Assembly: GCA_025451535.1 (NCBI GenBank)
Contig: JANWKE010000014.1
Location: forward strand, 1-34,997
Origin: Verrucomicrobiia bacterium
GTDB taxonomy: Bacteria > Verrucomicrobiota > Verrucomicrobiia > Limisphaerales > UBA11358
DNA length: 34,997 nucleotides
Direction: 5' to 3'
The translations under genes were made by a program, and so were the position numbers. The notes beneath the pieces are model-generated. The model did not search any database. It was not told the origin of the DNA and saw nothing but the letters and a program-made list of their open reading frames with translations. Of this stretch, positions 28,024-34,997 are shown one piece after another (the first letter of the stretch is position 1; each line of letters begins with the position of its first letter).

Positions 28024-28026
28024 AAA

Positions 28027-28125
28027 TTTATAATTTACGATTGATGATTTATGATTTGTCCCGACCGCAGAAAAACATTTAGCAATCGTAAATCATAAAT
28101 CATAAATCAAAAATCATAAATCGTG
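28027..28125. repeat. Two opposed heptamer arrays between queE and the aminotransferase gene
   Basis: The right array (28084-28125) has six 7-base units in a row: AATCGTA, AATCATA, AATCATA, AATCAAA, AATCATA, AATCGTG. The left array (28027-28054) has four units of the reverse complement type (TTTATAA, TTTACGA, TTGATGA, TTTATGA). Together they fold into a long AT-rich hairpin across the whole 99-base gap. The last unit supplies the GTG start codon of the aminotransferase. The array may end queE transcription, control access to the GTG, or be a mobile repeat. Confidence 0.75.
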
Positions 28126-29505
28126 TCCAAAACAAAAAAAGTCCTGCAACAGCTTCGTGATTTTGAATCGCGGAACATTTTATTTTTGGAGAGTGACGGT
28201 TCCTGGCCCATCGTTTGGGAACGCGCCCGGGACGTACACGTTTGGGACGCCAACGGGAAGAAGTATCTTGATTTGACTGCGGCGTTTGGCGTGGCCACCG
28301 CCGGTCACGCCAATCCGCGCGTGGTCAAAGCCGGGCAGCGGCAACTGGCTCGCCTGCCACATGCCATGGGTGACGTGCATCCCCACGCGCGGAAGGCCGA
28401 ACTCGCGCGCGAATTGAGCCGGATCACTTTTGAACGGTGGGAACGATTTCGGAAGGACGAGTTACACGAGTCCCAAAAATCAACGGCTCAGACAAAATCA
28501 GGGACTCGTGCAACTCGTCCCTCCGGAAAGGTAATCTTCTCCAACTCCGGTTTTGAAGCCGTCGAATCCACGCTCAAAACGGCCATGCTCGCCACCGGCA
28601 AACCAGGCGTCATCGCCTTTTCCGGCGCGTATCACGGACTCGGCTACGGCGCGCTCAACGTCACGCACCGCGATTTCTTCCGTGGCCCGTTCCACAATCA
28701 GCTCCGCGAGTTCGGGCATTTCGTCTTGTTCCCGGAAAAGTCCGGCGACCTGACCGCTGTCGAATGGGCCGTCGGCCGGCTCTTACGGCGCGAACGGATT
28801 GGCGCCATCCTCGTCGAGCCGGTGCAGGCGCGGGGTGGTATCAATGTCCCGCCAGAGGAATTTTTGCCGATGCTCCGCAAGCTTTGCGATGAGCACGGTG
28901 CGCTGCTGGTTCTCGACGAAATTTACACCGGGTTCGGCCGTACCGGGAAATGGTTCGCCTGCGAGCACAGCGCCGTTGTGCCCGACCTCATCTGCCTCGG
29001 CAAGGCGCTGACCGGCGGCTTCCCGCTGTCCGCCTGTGTTGGCCGGGCGGACATTATGGACGTGGCCTGGCCGGAATCGCGCGGCGAGGCGATTCATACC
29101 AGCACGTTCCTCGGAAATCCAGTTGGTTGCGCCATGGCACTGGCGCAAATCGCCGAAATCCAACGGCTTAACCTCTGCCAACGGAGCGCCGGGCTTGGCG
29201 AATTTTTGCTGAGTGCGCTGGGTTCTCTCCGCATTCCGCACTCCGCATTCCGCATTTCCGCTCGCGGTTTGGGCTTAATGGCGGGCGTCGAATTGCAATT
29301 GCCCGATGGCAAGCCGGCAAGCGAAGTCACGATGCGGGTCATCAAAAAAATGTTGCGCCAGGGTTTCATTCTTTTGCCGGAAGGCGAGCACGCCAACGTC
29401 ATCAGCTTCACCCCGCCATTGACCATTACCAGGGCGCAACTGGCAAAAACCGTCGCTGCCCTCGCCGAGGTTTTGACCACGGATGGACACGGTCTGTTGC
29501 ATTGA
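28123..29505 (+). CDS. Class-III PLP-dependent aminotransferase
   Basis: This 460-residue enzyme belongs to the class III (ornithine/acetylornithine/GABA-type) aminotransferases. Visible motifs are the dimer-arm start VWDANGKKYLDLTAAFGVATAGHANP, split by reading position, then NSGFEAVESTLKTA, FSGAYHGLGYGALNVT, GAILVEPVQARGGINVPP, LLVLDEIYTGFGRTG (PLP-binding Asp) and LICLGKALTGGFPLSA with the Schiff-base Lys. The natural substrate cannot be told. Two inserts disturb it: about 25 residues between LSRITFERWERF and GKVIFSNSG, made by a palindromic element, and LRIPHSAFRIS, made by heptamers. The family is otherwise intact. The start is GTG 28123. The upstream gene, queE, is functionally unrelated. 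Confidence 0.88.
   Translation: MSKTKKVLQQLRDFESRNILFLESDGSWPIVWERARDVHVWDANGKKYLDLTAAFGVATAGHANPRVVKAGQRQLARLPHAMGDVHPHARKAELARELSRITFERWERFRKDELHESQKSTAQTKSGTRATRPSGKVIFSNSGFEAVESTLKTAMLATGKPGVIAFSGAYHGLGYGALNVTHRDFFRGPFHNQLREFGHFVLFPEKSGDLTAVEWAVGRLLRRERIGAILVEPVQARGGINVPPEEFLPMLRKLCDEHGALLVLDEIYTGFGRTGKWFACEHSAVVPDLICLGKALTGGFPLSACVGRADIMDVAWPESRGEAIHTSTFLGNPVGCAMALAQIAEIQRLNLCQRSAGLGEFLLSALGSLRIPHSAFRISARGLGLMAGVELQLPDGKPASEVTMRVIKKMLRQGFILLPEGEHANVISFTPPLTITRAQLAKTVAALAEVLTTDGHGLLH
28447..28528. repeat. Palindromic element inserted in frame in the aminotransferase gene
   Basis: The arms GGACGAGTTACACGAGTCCC (28455-28474) and GGGACTCGTGCAACTCGTCC (28501-28520) are reverse complements with one mismatch. 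The similarity runs on outward for about 8 more bases with two mismatches. The 26-base loop is unrelated. The element codes for about 27 residues (from RKDELHES to TRATRPSGK) where related enzymes go straight on to the GKVIFSNSG strand. Confidence 0.8.
29229..29256 (+). repeat. In-frame heptamer repeat inside the aminotransferase gene
   Basis: Four 7-base units follow each other: CCGCATT, CCGCACT, CCGCATT, CCGCATT. They encode RIPHSAFRI in the small domain between LLSALGS and SARGLGLMAGVEL, a position where length varies in the family. Confidence 0.7.
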
Positions 29506-29572
29506 TTCCATTAAAGGTAAATTAGCAAATTGCTTGTAAAATCAAAGACTATTCGGGTGAAACCGCTGGAAT

Positions 29573-29596
29573 TTGCCGTAACCGGCGGCAACTTTT
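29573..29596 (+). terminator. Candidate terminator after the aminotransferase gene
   Basis: TTGCCG and CGGCAA form a 6-bp stem around TAACCGG and are followed by CTTTT, 68 bases after the stop codon. It is weak but correctly oriented. The remainder of 29506-29659 shows no gene, only a short direct repeat of CTGACAGT. Confidence 0.35.
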
Positions 29597-29659
29597 ACTG
29601 ACAGTTCGACTGACAGTGGCAATACCGAAATAGGCGAAATGTTCATGGCGGGTTTCGGT

Positions 29660-30046
29660 TCAAGCGGGTTGAATGTCGGCAGGAAAGTAAGAGTGATACT
29701 TGAGGCGCGGGTCGGCGGGATGGACGCCGAAAGGGTTGAAGCTACCGCACGGATGCTGCCAGAGGCTGCGACGCTGATTCCAATGGAAACCCAAAGCCCA
29801 AAGCAAACTTGCCAGACCGGGCCTGCGGGCAGGCGAGACATCCAGCCAAACCCATTTGCCGACAACCTCGGCGACTTCGTATTGCCTCGGCAACCGTGTC
29901 CGCAAATAGTTCAAAACCGATTCGGTGGACAATCTGCGATTGGTGCAATGCCTAACGAAATCCGGCAGCGCCTTGGTGGATTTTGAAACCGACGATGGCC
30001 GGACATTCGCCGGAGCTGACGCTTCAATTTGATTTGTTGTTTTCAT
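29660..30046 (-). CDS. Conserved-looking small protein of unknown function
   Basis: This 128-residue protein has a polar, low-complexity start (MKTTNQIEASAPANVRPSSV), a helix (STESVLNYLRTRLP) and then a compact core. The core holds EVAEVVGKWVWLDV, LASLLWALGFHWNQRRSLWQHPCG, given here in parts, and a tail DPRLKYHSYFPADIQPA. The regular Trp/Phe/His pattern and normal codon use suggest a real gene, and I recall similar proteins in accessory or plasmid-like DNA, but I cannot name a family or function. The ATG at 30046 is preceded by a run of T on the given strand (A on the coding strand). It is the left-most gene of the accessory block and is transcribed away from the OLD gene. Confidence 0.6.
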   Translation of the reverse strand: MKTTNQIEASAPANVRPSSVSKSTKALPDFVRHCTNRRLSTESVLNYLRTRLPRQYEVAEVVGKWVWLDVSPARRPGLASLLWALGFHWNQRRSLWQHPCGSFNPFGVHPADPRLKYHSYFPADIQPA

Positions 30047-30417
30047 AGCTTTTTTTTGAAACCGCTGTTCGTCACCCTGCCGTTTGCTGCTCGCTTCACT
30101 GATGGGGAGACAGCGAGCCGGGCGCGGCAGCGCATTAACGAACCAAGCGAAAGCTAAAACCGTGACAGTGGCGAAAGGGCAAAAGGGAAGACGCTGGCGC
30201 GGTTTTTGATCTCGCTCCTAAATATCGGCTCGGTGTCGGACCAGTGAGCAGCAAACGGGCGGGGGGTGATGGCGGGCGAAAAAAAGGCGAAGACAACAAC
30301 CCAACATTCCGTCTCCTGTTTTGAATCCTGTCCGGAGTCTGTGGAAGATTGCCACGGACGCGCCCGGGTATTTTTCGCGGGAGTGACAACTTTCCGCAGT
30401 CTCCGGCAAATTTGGGG

Positions 30418-30522
30418 GCGTCGTCAGGCCGGTTGGAAATCGGAGCGGGGTCGCGGAATGGAGCGAGCTTTAATTTTCGGAGAGGAGCGATTCGCGGAGA
30501 TTTTCAACCGGTCTGACGGCGC
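30418..30522 (+). ncRNA. Candidate structured RNA with a 24-bp terminal stem
   Basis: Bases 30418-30441 and 30499-30522 pair along all 24 positions when read as plus-strand RNA: 21 Watson-Crick pairs and 3 G-U wobbles. On the minus strand the three would be A-C mismatches. Inside, CGCG(G)AAT at 30452-30459 pairs with ATTCGCG at 30490-30496, with one bulged G. The core of the right arm is CAACCGGTCTGAC. It could be a small RNA, the leader of the downstream OLD gene, or a MITE-like element with 24-bp ends. Transcription is not shown. Confidence 0.4.
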
Positions 30523-30525
30523 GGA

Positions 30526-30602
30526 GTTAAAATGCGGCTTACAGCACGGACCTGCGCCGGGGAATCGTTCTCAATGCGCTGAAGGCGCAGCGCATTTTTA
30601 AC
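30526..30602 (+). promoter_or_regulatory. Mutually exclusive hairpins, attenuator-like
   Basis: CAGCGCATT (30588-30596) pairs perfectly with AATGCGCTG (30573-30581), leaving a loop AAGGCG and a following run of five T, as in an intrinsic terminator. The same 3' segment, CGCATTTTTAAC (30591-30602), can instead pair with GTTAAAATGCG (30526-30536) with one bulged A. The two folds exclude each other. The simplest reading is a terminator for upstream plus-strand RNA; a switchable attenuator is possible. Confidence 0.45.
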
Positions 30603-30631
30603 TTGACGGGTTGTTGCTAGGGGAAGACAAT
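30603..30631 (+). promoter_or_regulatory. Candidate promoter of the OLD gene
   Basis: TTGACG (30603-30608), 17 bases, then GACAAT (30626-30631) matches a sigma-70 type promoter at 5 and 4 of 6 positions. It lies directly after the terminator-like hairpin and about 50 bases before the ATG at 30684, so the gene could be transcribed on its own. Confidence 0.4.
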
Positions 30632-30683
30632 TTTTTAACCACTCCATTCTGCGGTGGAATCGGGCGAAACAATAACCAAATAT

Positions 30684-32612
30684 ATGAAACTCGTTGAAGT
30701 CCAGGTTCAGAACTTTAAAAGCATTTTGGACTCAACGCCGGTTCAAATTGACCCTTCAATTACTTGCATCGTTGGTAAGAACGAATCTGGCAAGACTGCC
30801 TTCCTAAATGCGTTGTATAGAGCCGATCCAGCTCGTCAACGTAAGTTCGACGTTCAACAGCATTATCCGGCTTGGCTCGAAAAGCAGCACCGGCGCGAAG
30901 GACGTGACTTGAAGCAAGTCCAGCCAATTCGAGTAACCTTTGAAGTTGAGGCAAAGGATCTTTCAGTGTTTGAAGCGCGATTTGGCACTGGAATTCTGAC
31001 ATCAAAGAGATTTACGTATGCTCGAAATTACGGCGATGGATTCATATGGGTTTCCCACGGTATAGACGAGACAATTGCTATCCGTCATATAGTTAATCAG
31101 GTCAAAATGCCGGCAGATTTTCAAGAAGCTTCCCAAAAAGCCGTGACATTGGCTGACATCGATCAGCTCATAGAGAAGCTGACGAAAGAGGCTGGTGAAC
31201 ACGCAAAAGCTGCTAGCGCTTCATTAACGGGGGCTAAAGCGACTGTGCTAGGCAAAGAAACGAATGTCCGGGCGGCTGTATTAGCGTTCCTGTGGCAACA
31301 GACTCCACAATTCTTTTATTTTGACGAATACAGTTCGCTTCCTGGTTCAATTAAGATCAGCGAATTGCTCGCAAAAAAAACCGAGGCCCTCACCGAGGAC
31401 GAATCTACGGCACGCGCTCTATTAAAACTTGCAGGAGCAGAATCAGAATATTTGCTAAATGCTGATTATGAAGTCAGAAAGCGCGAGTTAGAAAATGTCG
31501 CCAATTCAATTACGCATGACGTTCTGAAATATTGGACCACCAATTCTGAACTTAGAGTGATGATCGACATTACCCAGAAAACGGTTCAGAGCACCACGCC
31601 GGGATATTCTGGGCAACAGTCGGTTTTGGATGAGCTAAAAATAAGGCTTTGGGATGACAGACACCTTCTATCGTTGCCATTTGATCAGCGATCAACTGGT
31701 TTCCGCTGGTTTTTCTCGTTCCTGGCTGCTTTCTCGGAATTTGAACACAGCGCGAAACCTATAATAATCCTGCTTGATGAGCCCGGACTTGGCCTGCATG
31801 CCCGCGCTCAAAAAGATTTCCTCCGTTTTATTGAGGAAAGACTCTCCCAAAAATGCCAAGTCATTTATTCAACACATTCACCGTTCTTAATTCAGCCAGA
31901 GAAGCTTGAGCGTGCACGTCTTGTCGAGGACAAGGGGCGCGAAATTGGGTCCCGAATTACATCGGATGTTTTAGCAACGGACAAAGATACTATATTCCCT
32001 CTTCAAGGCGCTCTTGGCTATGATTTAGCCCAGCACCTGTTTATTGCGCCTCACAATCTTGTCATCGAAGGAACGTCGGATTACACCTATCTGCTATTAT
32101 TGTCCACGCATCTAACCGCGAACAAACGAACAGGTCTTGATGATAGATGGTCGCTTGTTCCGGTTGGTGGTGCGGATTTGATTCCTTCCTTCGTCGCCTT
32201 GTTGGGAAATCACCTTGAAGTGACCGTGCTTCTCGACTCGCGTAGGGAAGGAAATCAACGACTGGTTAAGCTGGTTGATCAGGGTATCCTCGCGAGGAAT
32301 CGAATCATAGCGGTCGGTGATATCATTGGGAAAAAATGCGCTGACACGGAGGATTTATTTGAGCCATCTGAATATTTAAGGTTGTATAATCAGGCTTTCA
32401 TCGTTTCCCTCACAGAGGCTGACTTGGTTGGCAATGACGCAATCGTGACGCGAATCGCCCGGCACAACAAGCAAGACAGATTCGACCACGGCCGCCCGGC
32501 AGATGTATTACTGAGGCAGCGCGATTCATTTTTACCAACGTTAAGTCCTGGGACCTTGGATCGTTTCGAAACTTTGTTTAGGCGCATCAATGAGACACTG
32601 GGCGCTAAATAA
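30684..32612 (+). CDS. OLD-family ATP-dependent nuclease (ABC-type ATPase plus TOPRIM)
   Basis: This 642-residue protein joins an SMC/ABC-like ATPase to a TOPRIM domain, as in OLD nucleases and GajA, which act in phage defence. The start is typical (MKLVEVQVQNFKSIL). Walker A GKNESGKT is at 31-38, followed by a coiled insert (about residues 140-300). Walker B is ILLDEPGLGLH (about 362-372) and the H-switch is YSTHSPF. The TOPRIM region shows NLVIEGTSDYTYLLLL (Glu462), PVGGADLIPS and TVLLDSRREGNQ (Asp518), where the second acid of the usual DxD is Arg. The ATG at 30684 is preferred over a GTG at 30654. The gene is visibly AT-richer than its neighbours, suggesting transfer. No gajB-like helicase or reverse transcriptase accompanies it. 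Confidence 0.85.
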   Translation: MKLVEVQVQNFKSILDSTPVQIDPSITCIVGKNESGKTAFLNALYRADPARQRKFDVQQHYPAWLEKQHRREGRDLKQVQPIRVTFEVEAKDLSVFEARFGTGILTSKRFTYARNYGDGFIWVSHGIDETIAIRHIVNQVKMPADFQEASQKAVTLADIDQLIEKLTKEAGEHAKAASASLTGAKATVLGKETNVRAAVLAFLWQQTPQFFYFDEYSSLPGSIKISELLAKKTEALTEDESTARALLKLAGAESEYLLNADYEVRKRELENVANSITHDVLKYWTTNSELRVMIDITQKTVQSTTPGYSGQQSVLDELKIRLWDDRHLLSLPFDQRSTGFRWFFSFLAAFSEFEHSAKPIIILLDEPGLGLHARAQKDFLRFIEERLSQKCQVIYSTHSPFLIQPEKLERARLVEDKGREIGSRITSDVLATDKDTIFPLQGALGYDLAQHLFIAPHNLVIEGTSDYTYLLLLSTHLTANKRTGLDDRWSLVPVGGADLIPSFVALLGNHLEVTVLLDSRREGNQRLVKLVDQGILARNRIIAVGDIIGKKCADTEDLFEPSEYLRLYNQAFIVSLTEADLVGNDAIVTRIARHNKQDRFDHGRPADVLLRQRDSFLPTLSPGTLDRFETLFRRINETLGAK

Positions 32613-32760: not shown

Positions 32761-33771
32761 ATGCCCAAAAAAGCCAGACGAATCAGCAAAGCCAAACGCC
32801 AACCAAACAGCGTTGGCGCTTTGCGTGAAGATGCGACTCCGTATCGCGTCAACGGTAATTCTTTGGGGCATGGGCGAACCGCTCCCCCGCCAATTGCGCG
32901 GCTGTCGGAGAAAAAGAAACTTATCCCGTTCGGGTGGTATGGCGGAAAATTCTCGCACCTCGACTGGCTGCTTCCGCTGCTGCCTGCTTGTCATCATTAT
33001 TGCGAGCCATTCGCTGGCTCAGGCGCGGTGCTGCTCAATCGCGACCCGTCGCCGGTAGAAACGTTCAACGATCTTGATGGCGAGGTGGTGAATTTCTTCC
33101 GCGTTCTTCGCGAAGAAAAGGAACAGTTGATTGAGGCCATCGGTCTGACTCCGTTCGCACGCGAGGAATTTGCGCTGGCCTGCGAAGTCAGTCCCGACTT
33201 GTCGGCGCTGGAACGCGCCCGGCGGTTTTATGTCCGCGCCCGGCAAGTGCGCACGGGTCTGGCGCAGACAGCCACGGTTGGCCGCTGGGCGAATTGCAAA
33301 AACACCAGTCGCGCCGGCATGAGCGGCGTTATCAGCCGGTGGCTCGGCGCGGTGGAGGATTTGCCGGCGGTGGCGGAGCGGCTGCTTCGTGTTCAAATCG
33401 AAAATCGTCCGGCCGCAGACATCATCCGACTCTACGATTCACCGGGCACGCTGTTTTACTGCGACCCGCCTTATGTCCATTCCACGCGCGGCGACTCGAA
33501 GGCTTACGAATTTGAAATGACCGACACGCAACACTGGGAACTCGCGGATGTTTTGAATTCGGTTCAAGGCATGGTCGCGTTTTCAAATTATCAGGCACCC
33601 ATTCTCGAAAAATTTTATCCCGCTACAAAATGGCACAAGACGGTTTCGCCCGAACGCACGAACCATTCCACCAAGGATAAGCGCGTGGAAGTGCTCTGGA
33701 CAAATTACGACCCGCACAAAATCAAACACAACGGCAGCCACATACATGGAGAATTGTTCCAAGCTGCTTGA
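32761..33771 (+). CDS. D12-class (Dam-like) adenine-N6 DNA methyltransferase
   Basis: This 336-residue enzyme would methylate adenine in the recognition site of the endonuclease encoded next. The D12 alpha-class order is clear: IPFGWYGGKFSHLDWLLPLLP (residues 55-75), the AdoMet motif CEPFAGSGAVLLNRD (81-95), NDLDGEVVNFFRVLRE, then the catalytic motif FYCDPPYVHS (DPPY at 235-238) and MVAFSNYQAP. The first 50 residues are basic and Pro-rich and not part of the usual fold, so a later start is possible, but no other Met occurs before the domain. The composition is GC-rich again, unlike the OLD gene, so the two probably arrived separately. The gene overlaps the endonuclease gene by 26 bases. Confidence 0.92.
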   Translation: MPKKARRISKAKRQPNSVGALREDATPYRVNGNSLGHGRTAPPPIARLSEKKKLIPFGWYGGKFSHLDWLLPLLPACHHYCEPFAGSGAVLLNRDPSPVETFNDLDGEVVNFFRVLREEKEQLIEAIGLTPFAREEFALACEVSPDLSALERARRFYVRARQVRTGLAQTATVGRWANCKNTSRAGMSGVISRWLGAVEDLPAVAERLLRVQIENRPAADIIRLYDSPGTLFYCDPPYVHSTRGDSKAYEFEMTDTQHWELADVLNSVQGMVAFSNYQAPILEKFYPATKWHKTVSPERTNHSTKDKRVEVLWTNYDPHKIKHNGSHIHGELFQAA

Positions 33772-34870
33772 GGATTCACTCAAACGCGCGCAGGCGAATA
33801 TCGGCCATTCGTTTATTCACGACGAAAAAATTGCGGCGCGGGTTCTTTCGGTTGTGAATTGCCCAAGCAATCGCGCCGGGGCACGGCTGCTCATGGCCTG
33901 CATGTTGGCAAAGGTGCATGACCCGAAAATTGATCCGCGCAAGCCCTACACAAAAATCGGCAGCAAGGATTGTTTCTCCGGTCGCAGTTATGATGAGCAA
34001 TTCATTGGCGGTTTCATCACAAAACACAATCTGCCCTGCAATTCGACGACGGCTTTTCTCACGCCGACATTGCGCAACATGGACCAGACGCTGACGACGA
34101 AAGTTGTTTTGGTCGGGCGTCCGATGGTGATGTATGAGAGCGCCTTGAAACTTCTCGACGATGTTCATGCAGGTCGAGCCTCGGCACAGGACGTTCTGAA
34201 CGAATCCATCCGGTTGCTGTTGCTGGACCGTGACGCGCGTAAGGCGCGGCTCAAGACGCTTTTGTCCGGCGTTGGCCGCGTGGCGGATGCCCTGCCGTTA
34301 TCATCCGAGGACACAGTAAATTTGGTCGAGCAGCATTTACGCTGCAAAGGTTCAAGCCGGTTGCTTGTGTTGATAGTCGCCGCCGCCTACGAAGCCGTGA
34401 AAACGCGGCTTGGCGAGCGCGTACTCAATCTCACCGGCCACAATGCCGCCGACGAGCAAACCGGCGCGGTCGGGGACGTTCAAATCACGATCCTAGGCGA
34501 TGATAGAGTCGTGACGAGTTATGAGATGAAGAACAAGGCTGTGTCGAATGGCGACATTGATCGCGCACTCCAGAAGATTGCCGCGCAAGGGAAGCACGTC
34601 CAAAATTACATTTTTATCACCACTGAGCCTGTTTCTGAAGATGTTCGTGATTATGCCCGCTCCAAGTATGACGAGACGGGCGGCGTCGAAATCGCGATTC
34701 TTGATTGCATCGGATTCCTGCGCCATTTCCTGCATCTATTCCATCGGCTGCGGAAGGATTTCCTCGACCAATACCAAACTCTTGTTCTCCATGAGCCGGA
34801 CAGCGCCGTCAGCCAGGGCTTGAAAGAGGCGTTTCTTGCCTTGCGTCAGGCGGCGGAAAGCGCGGATTAA
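33746..34870 (+). CDS. Type II restriction endonuclease, SacI-family-like
   Basis: This 374-residue protein resembles the SacI restriction endonuclease family. The N-terminal half has the characteristic stretches CFSGRSYDEQFIGGFITKHN and LPCNSTTAFLTPTLRNMD, then VLVGRPMVMYESALKLLDDV. The C-terminal half holds a PD-(D/E)xK-type core: Asp244 in GAVGDVQI, then Glu260 and Lys262 in TSYEMKNK. SacI itself cuts GAGCTC, but the target here cannot be inferred. It starts at ATG 33746 inside the methylase gene, an arrangement that couples the two and lets methylase be made first. The family call is from memory of its motifs; a different PD-(D/E)xK endonuclease family is the main alternative. Confidence 0.72.
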   Translation: MENCSKLLEDSLKRAQANIGHSFIHDEKIAARVLSVVNCPSNRAGARLLMACMLAKVHDPKIDPRKPYTKIGSKDCFSGRSYDEQFIGGFITKHNLPCNSTTAFLTPTLRNMDQTLTTKVVLVGRPMVMYESALKLLDDVHAGRASAQDVLNESIRLLLLDRDARKARLKTLLSGVGRVADALPLSSEDTVNLVEQHLRCKGSSRLLVLIVAAAYEAVKTRLGERVLNLTGHNAADEQTGAVGDVQITILGDDRVVTSYEMKNKAVSNGDIDRALQKIAAQGKHVQNYIFITTEPVSEDVRDYARSKYDETGGVEIAILDCIGFLRHFLHLFHRLRKDFLDQYQTLVLHEPDSAVSQGLKEAFLALRQAAESAD

Positions 34871-34997
34871 GTTTTCGCGCCATCCAATTTGGCGATGTGA
34901 CGAAACCCGGCTGCCGGAGTGGAGCGGCAACCAGGGCGGAGTGCAGCGGTGTGCCGTTTGGTCGCGCGGGCGTCTTGGGACAAGCCAGTCTTTCGGC
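34871..34997. other. Non-coding end of the window
   Basis: Nothing gene-like is seen. There is a small dyad (TGCCG/CGGCA near 34911-34928) and two similar GGAGTG(G/C)AGCGG stretches, which may be the edge of another repeat. Confidence 0.4.

Follow-up and report, generated by a model that had tools for sequence, protein, structure and literature searches.

A structured leader upstream of an OLD gene

What is the role of a prominent hairpin that stands upstream of an OLD-type nuclease gene? The question is raised by positions 30418-30522 of a 34,997-nt stretch of DNA from a Verrucomicrobiia bacterium (the whole stretch analysed, here called the window), which the original prediction interpreted as possibly a structured RNA partnering the OLD protein. 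The described architecture was confirmed: the arms 30418-30441 and 30499-30522 form 24 pairs, the three pairs departing from Watson-Crick geometry are all G-U on the + strand, and a smaller stem nests in the 57-nt loop. This stem is the top-scoring hairpin of the 35-kb window. Folded as RNA, its + strand reaches -62 kcal/mol (z -6.7 against dinucleotide shuffles), as compared to -40.3 kcal/mol (z -5.7) for the minus strand. Two more large paired elements, which the original prediction had missed, lie directly to its left, namely a domain P1 enclosing hairpin A, and hairpin B. The stem, hereafter hairpin C, is the outer hairpin and forms only the right edge of a structured leader of ~450 nt (30069-30522) composed of P1, A, B and C. 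The region contains the following features:

29470..29640, no strand: left end, conserved between copies of the element (GTAAAATnAAAGACTATTCGG ... CACTGACAGTTTCACTGACAGTG); the homology of several copies begins here, and their left flanks differ
29660..30046, minus strand: small ORF of 128 aa (..WNQRRSLWQHPCG..); homologues occur in 30 of the 49 genus genomes
30069..30269, + strand: leader domain P1, arms 30069-30095 and 30243-30269; covarying helix, both arms in 11 copies
30146..30216, + strand: hairpin A, within P1
30332..30406, + strand: hairpin B (GGAGTCTG..CAGTCTCC); both arms contain AGTCT, and there is a T.T mismatch; compensatory double changes
30418..30522, + strand: hairpin C; its counterparts in other copies have another sequence and keep the pairing
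30573..30602, + strand: T-tailed, terminator-like hairpin that separates the stem from OLD; outside the conserved leader
30603..30631, + strand: promoter-like site (TTGACG-17-GACAAT) directly upstream of OLD; 9 of 12 consensus bases
30684..32612, + strand: OLD-type AAA_15 ATPase/nuclease gene; cargo, outside the leader system
32761..33771, + strand: D12-class (Dam-like) adenine methyltransferase; cargo
33746..34870, + strand: SacI-like restriction endonuclease; cargo (PF09566, E 1.8e-4, above the cut-off)
34899..34997, + strand: start of another segment of the leader type, broken off by the contig end; in locus L063 the matching sequence takes the place of hairpin C, immediately behind hairpin B

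The copy of the element in the window is a remnant that runs from the left end to the contig end and carries the OLD-Dam-SacI cargo. Because the L063 match to 34899-34997 sits in the place of hairpin C, this cargo is enclosed by two such segments. The D12 methylase and the SacI-like endonuclease may constitute a restriction-modification pair; their genes overlap by 26 bases. On the other side of the leader, the small ORF would be the first gene served by it. The encoded 128-aa protein matched no Pfam or NCBIfam family, and its N-terminus, MKTTNQ.IEASAPANVRPSS, is almost invariant among the copies read. The left end at 29470..29640 overlaps the last codons of an aminotransferase ORF, which terminates within the left-end repeat (ACCACGGATGGACACGGTCTG, 29470-29505), a type of sequence also present at the left ends of other copies. 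Two further repeats were observed in this part of the window. A long palindrome of the GGACGAGTTACACGAG type lies within the aminotransferase ORF (28447-28528) and is probably a dispersed repeat inserted in frame, since L012 has a similar palindrome on a different contig. An AT-rich tandem/inverted repeat with ATTTATGATTT units occupies 28026-28121, between the radical-SAM and aminotransferase genes.

Covariation and the folded strand

Searching with 30047-30660 as query returned matches in 19 of the 49 genus genomes, some of them holding several leader copies; most matches were 70-84% identical at the DNA level, and a few short ones were higher. Copies are present in MAGs of Verrucomicrobia subdivision 3, and many copies are decayed. 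In the 20 loci that we mapped, a conserved block extends from ~29470 to 30300-30530 and is followed by unrelated sequence, different at each locus. Copies retaining hairpin B usually have a second hairpin of different sequence in the place of hairpin C, and L205, which was left out of model building, has both hairpins (B 82 bits, C 66 bits).

Across these copies, the hairpins have diverged in sequence and retained their pairing. Double compensatory changes were found in 22 of 77 pairs of the leader (P1, A and B; 97% paired), in 13 of 25 pairs of hairpin B, and in 9 of 19 pairs of the hairpin C counterparts (97% of cells paired), with 0 of 500 shuffles being as good in each case. These shuffle counts should not be read as probabilities, because the copies are kin; slid controls of the leader, B and C retain this kinship, yet fall far short, with 22-40% paired for the hairpin C alignment. 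The leader is a conserved single-strand structure. Covariation, which had been proposed as a check of the stem, is strong among the leader copies and bears out the view of a structured single-strand element on the + strand.

The non-canonical pairs point to the + strand as the strand that folds. When G.T and A.C were scored equally in 22 C hairpins, 39 G.T faced 6 A.C pairs (binomial p 5e-7, an optimistic value as related sequences are not independent), T.T outnumbered A.A by 23 to 9, and G.G outnumbered C.C by 19 to 0. Hairpin B alone showed no significant G.T/A.C bias (18 vs 13). Fold energies gave the same strand: the template strand of the adjoining genes folds better in every one of the 17 leaders, by -3.7 to -10.7 kcal/mol per 100 nt, compared to a mean of -0.6 (sd 4.1) in 87 control stretches. 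About half of this asymmetry reflects base composition, and the remainder had the same sign in all 15 leaders tested. The bias of the non-canonical pairs towards the other strand speaks against a riboswitch in the 5' UTR of the minus-strand operon, which was rejected as the main reading.

Gene surroundings and proposed function

We next describe the genes around the leader copies, with left and right given in window orientation. On the left, minus-strand genes comprise the small ORF, DUF6573 and RadC (L048, L057, L061), ArdC (L092, L093, L094), DUF6573-ArdC-RadC (L090), DUF932 (L091) or a ParA operon (L087), and the small ORF is found left of the leader in module copies wherever it has survived. 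The leader hence stands 5' of ArdC, DUF6573, RadC, DUF932 or ParA genes and is folded on their template strand; the exception is L088, which has a + strand ORF on the left. On the right, less decayed copies carry TraD and the TrwC relaxase on the + strand (L063, L064, L161) or TrwC (L060), and in L087 TraD and TrwC are located on the left side instead. TrwC is carried by 26 of the 49 genomes. A polymerase of the IMS/UmuC type adjoins the leader in L063 and L064, and HsdR, toxin-antitoxin-like ORFs and TraD/TrwC are found among the other neighbours. These genes represent the leading and transfer regions of a conjugative element. The upstream folds of all 26 ArdC loci, used as a guide only, were mixed, probably because many ArdC genes stand behind another gene of their operon. 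The ORF adjoining the leader in L065 was considered as a tyrosine recombinase and received no Pfam support.

Separately, we observed pairs of long hairpins in which the second hairpin has AGTCT on both arms and the T.T mismatch, at 7156-7326 in L059 and, in reverse orientation, at 3194-3358 in L060, 3104-3274 in L061 and 7226-7392 in L157. The pairs in L059, L060 and L157 lie upstream of TrwC relaxase genes and are candidate oriT of MobF elements.

We consider it an even chance (probability about 0.5) that the leader is a Frpo-like single-strand promoter or priming leader of a conjugative-type element. We say that it works like Frpo and do not class it as one, because a search of the minus strand of 29980-30720 for promoter hexamers found no sigma-70-type -35/-10 pair, a consensus that may not be that of the host. 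The element would be an integrated conjugative or mobilisable one, perhaps still mobile, equipped with TraD, a MobF (TrwC) relaxase and minus-strand genes of the leading-region type. Its + strand would most likely be the strand transferred in conjugation, a direction that we infer, since the oriT was not located. Upon entry into the recipient, the transferred + strand should fold, and host RNA polymerase, or a primase, may take the folded DNA as a mimic of double-stranded DNA. The anti-restriction genes could thereby be transcribed with the + strand as template, ahead of second-strand synthesis, for which the folded leader possibly also supplies the primer. It is conceivable, with lower confidence, that leaders of this kind, large structured nucleic acids of ~450 nt in which AGTCT/T.T stems recur, form an undescribed class. 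In the mobile elements of Verrucomicrobiota, they would control or start anti-defence gene expression from the incoming strand without standard promoter hexamers, for example by direct recruitment of a primase or polymerase or by a dedicated RNA.

The main rival is a structured + strand non-coding RNA that would lie antisense to the small-ORF/ArdC operon leader and regulate the element. Such an RNA would leave the same marks as folded + strand DNA. The large, ornate multi-helix fold, the G-U pairs on the + strand and the strong covariation fit such an RNA, as do the + strand fold energies, with z of -2 to -21 when RNA rules are applied. A terminator-like site follows in the window (30573-30602), but it lies beyond the conserved part, which ends at 30528-30531. 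Moreover, the leader matched no Rfam family at gathering or lax thresholds, its left end has no promoter-like site on the + strand, and from a free RNA one would not predict that the folded strand is consistently the template of anti-restriction genes. We regard this RNA as possible but doubtful.

Hairpins B and C might also be, or be part of, an oriT or the recognition sites of a MobF relaxase. MobF nic sites of IncW/IncN end in GTCT, and nearly all B and C hairpins have AGTCT on both arms together with the fixed T.T mismatch. In L063, L064 and L161 they separate the leading genes from TraD-TrwC, and similar AGTCT hairpins occur directly upstream of TrwC (L060, L157) and of the TrwC start (L059). 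However, the same hairpins are also located inside minus-strand gene runs, between DUF6573 and ArdC (L092, L094). In L086, two hairpins are 2.1 kb apart, and several oriT per element would be unexpected; the covarying part, ~450 nt, is more than a nic site needs. Such a role of these hairpins appears unlikely.

The homology of the copies runs out at hairpin C or next to it (at 30528-30531 for L048, L049 and L067) and the right flank differs each time, as would be expected of a single-strand recombination site of the attC type, or of a mobile palindromic repeat (MITE/REP), where cargo is exchanged. Cargo exchange at such a site is nevertheless improbable. The stem ends, read by eye as GCGTC..GGCGC and GCGCG..CGCGC, lack attC R boxes (RYYYAAC/GTTRRRY), and the attC reading was rejected on these grounds. 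A MITE with terminal repeats, the main alternative of the original prediction, does not agree with copies that vary in sequence, keep their structure and travel with a gene set, the hairpins being bound to the leader and its genes and not singly dispersed. The genome itself holds one full copy of the element besides short matches, with no match to the R1 model, which likewise led us to reject the MITE/REP reading.

Stem and OLD gene share a strand, with the stem about 160 nt upstream, but an RNA part of an OLD-based defence system is scarcely credible, as the leader occurs at many unrelated loci (in 19 of 49 genomes) with no OLD homologue beside any other copy, and OLD homologues occur at 8 loci in 7 other genomes of the order, some of these loci being short or ended by contig ends, where hairpins B and C are absent. 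Both results are of the kind that the original prediction had named as refuting it, and they tell against the OLD link. The promoter-like site at 30603..30631, behind the terminator-like hairpin 30573-30602, suggests that OLD has its own promoter. Since the link to OLD failed at the other copies, readings of a gene-linked 'defence RNA' need such copies to be checked first.

Comparison with known systems

The Frpo-like leader that we favour has its closest counterpart in plasmid F. There, the leading genes are read early from Frpo1 and Frpo2 with the transferred strand as template (PMC9849209), Frpo being a stem-loop sequence of 328 bp (PMC8744291). These single-strand promoters and their 328-nt structured sequence go back to Masai & Arai 1997, as cited in PMC9849209 and PMC8744291. 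Candidate Frpo/ssi promoters and anti-defence islands were described across conjugative elements by Samuel et al. 2024, with leading-region islands often bounded by umuCD genes (PMC11541004). When the F sequence NC_002483 was run through the same fold-energy script as the leaders, the template strand was favoured in both Frpo1 (-290 vs -253 kcal/mol) and Frpo2 (-273 vs -252 kcal/mol). Frpo1/2 and the leader share a length of several hundred nucleotides, imperfect stems on the strand that is the template for leading-region genes, a place upstream of anti-restriction/DUF932-type genes and the same fold asymmetry. Both Frpo1 and the L091 leader precede a DUF932 gene.

Measured against the features of Frpo, the leader has extended single-strand stem-loops, and its folded strand is the template of the downstream leading genes, a use of the T-strand that would follow the published geometry (PMC9849209). 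Its copies may also lie in a leading region behind an oriT, with relaxase, TraD and leading-type genes around them. In contrast to Frpo, its domains follow the order P1/A, B, C, with stems of the AGTCT/T.T type, and the TTGACA/TATAAT pair, which in Frpo is reconstituted as -35/-10 in the stem, was not found. Unlike in F, TraD and TrwC lie on the strand opposite to the leader genes. The host of the leader is Verrucomicrobia subdivision 3, and PMC11541004 does not mention this phylum.

Two other systems bear a partial resemblance. With integron attC sites, the leader shares imperfect stems kept in structure and not in sequence, variable cargo adjoining, and mismatches that mark one strand; it differs in having no R boxes, in standing before and not after the gene, and in that no integron integrase was found. 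In the sso/ssi of plasmids, a structured single strand starts synthesis on the incoming strand, whereas the leader is coupled to a gene start. ssDNA promoters have been characterised mainly in enterobacterial plasmids, and the leader family lies outside them, being alignable and covarying. It offers a searchable structure model, making early expression from incoming ssDNA testable as a general anti-restriction route.
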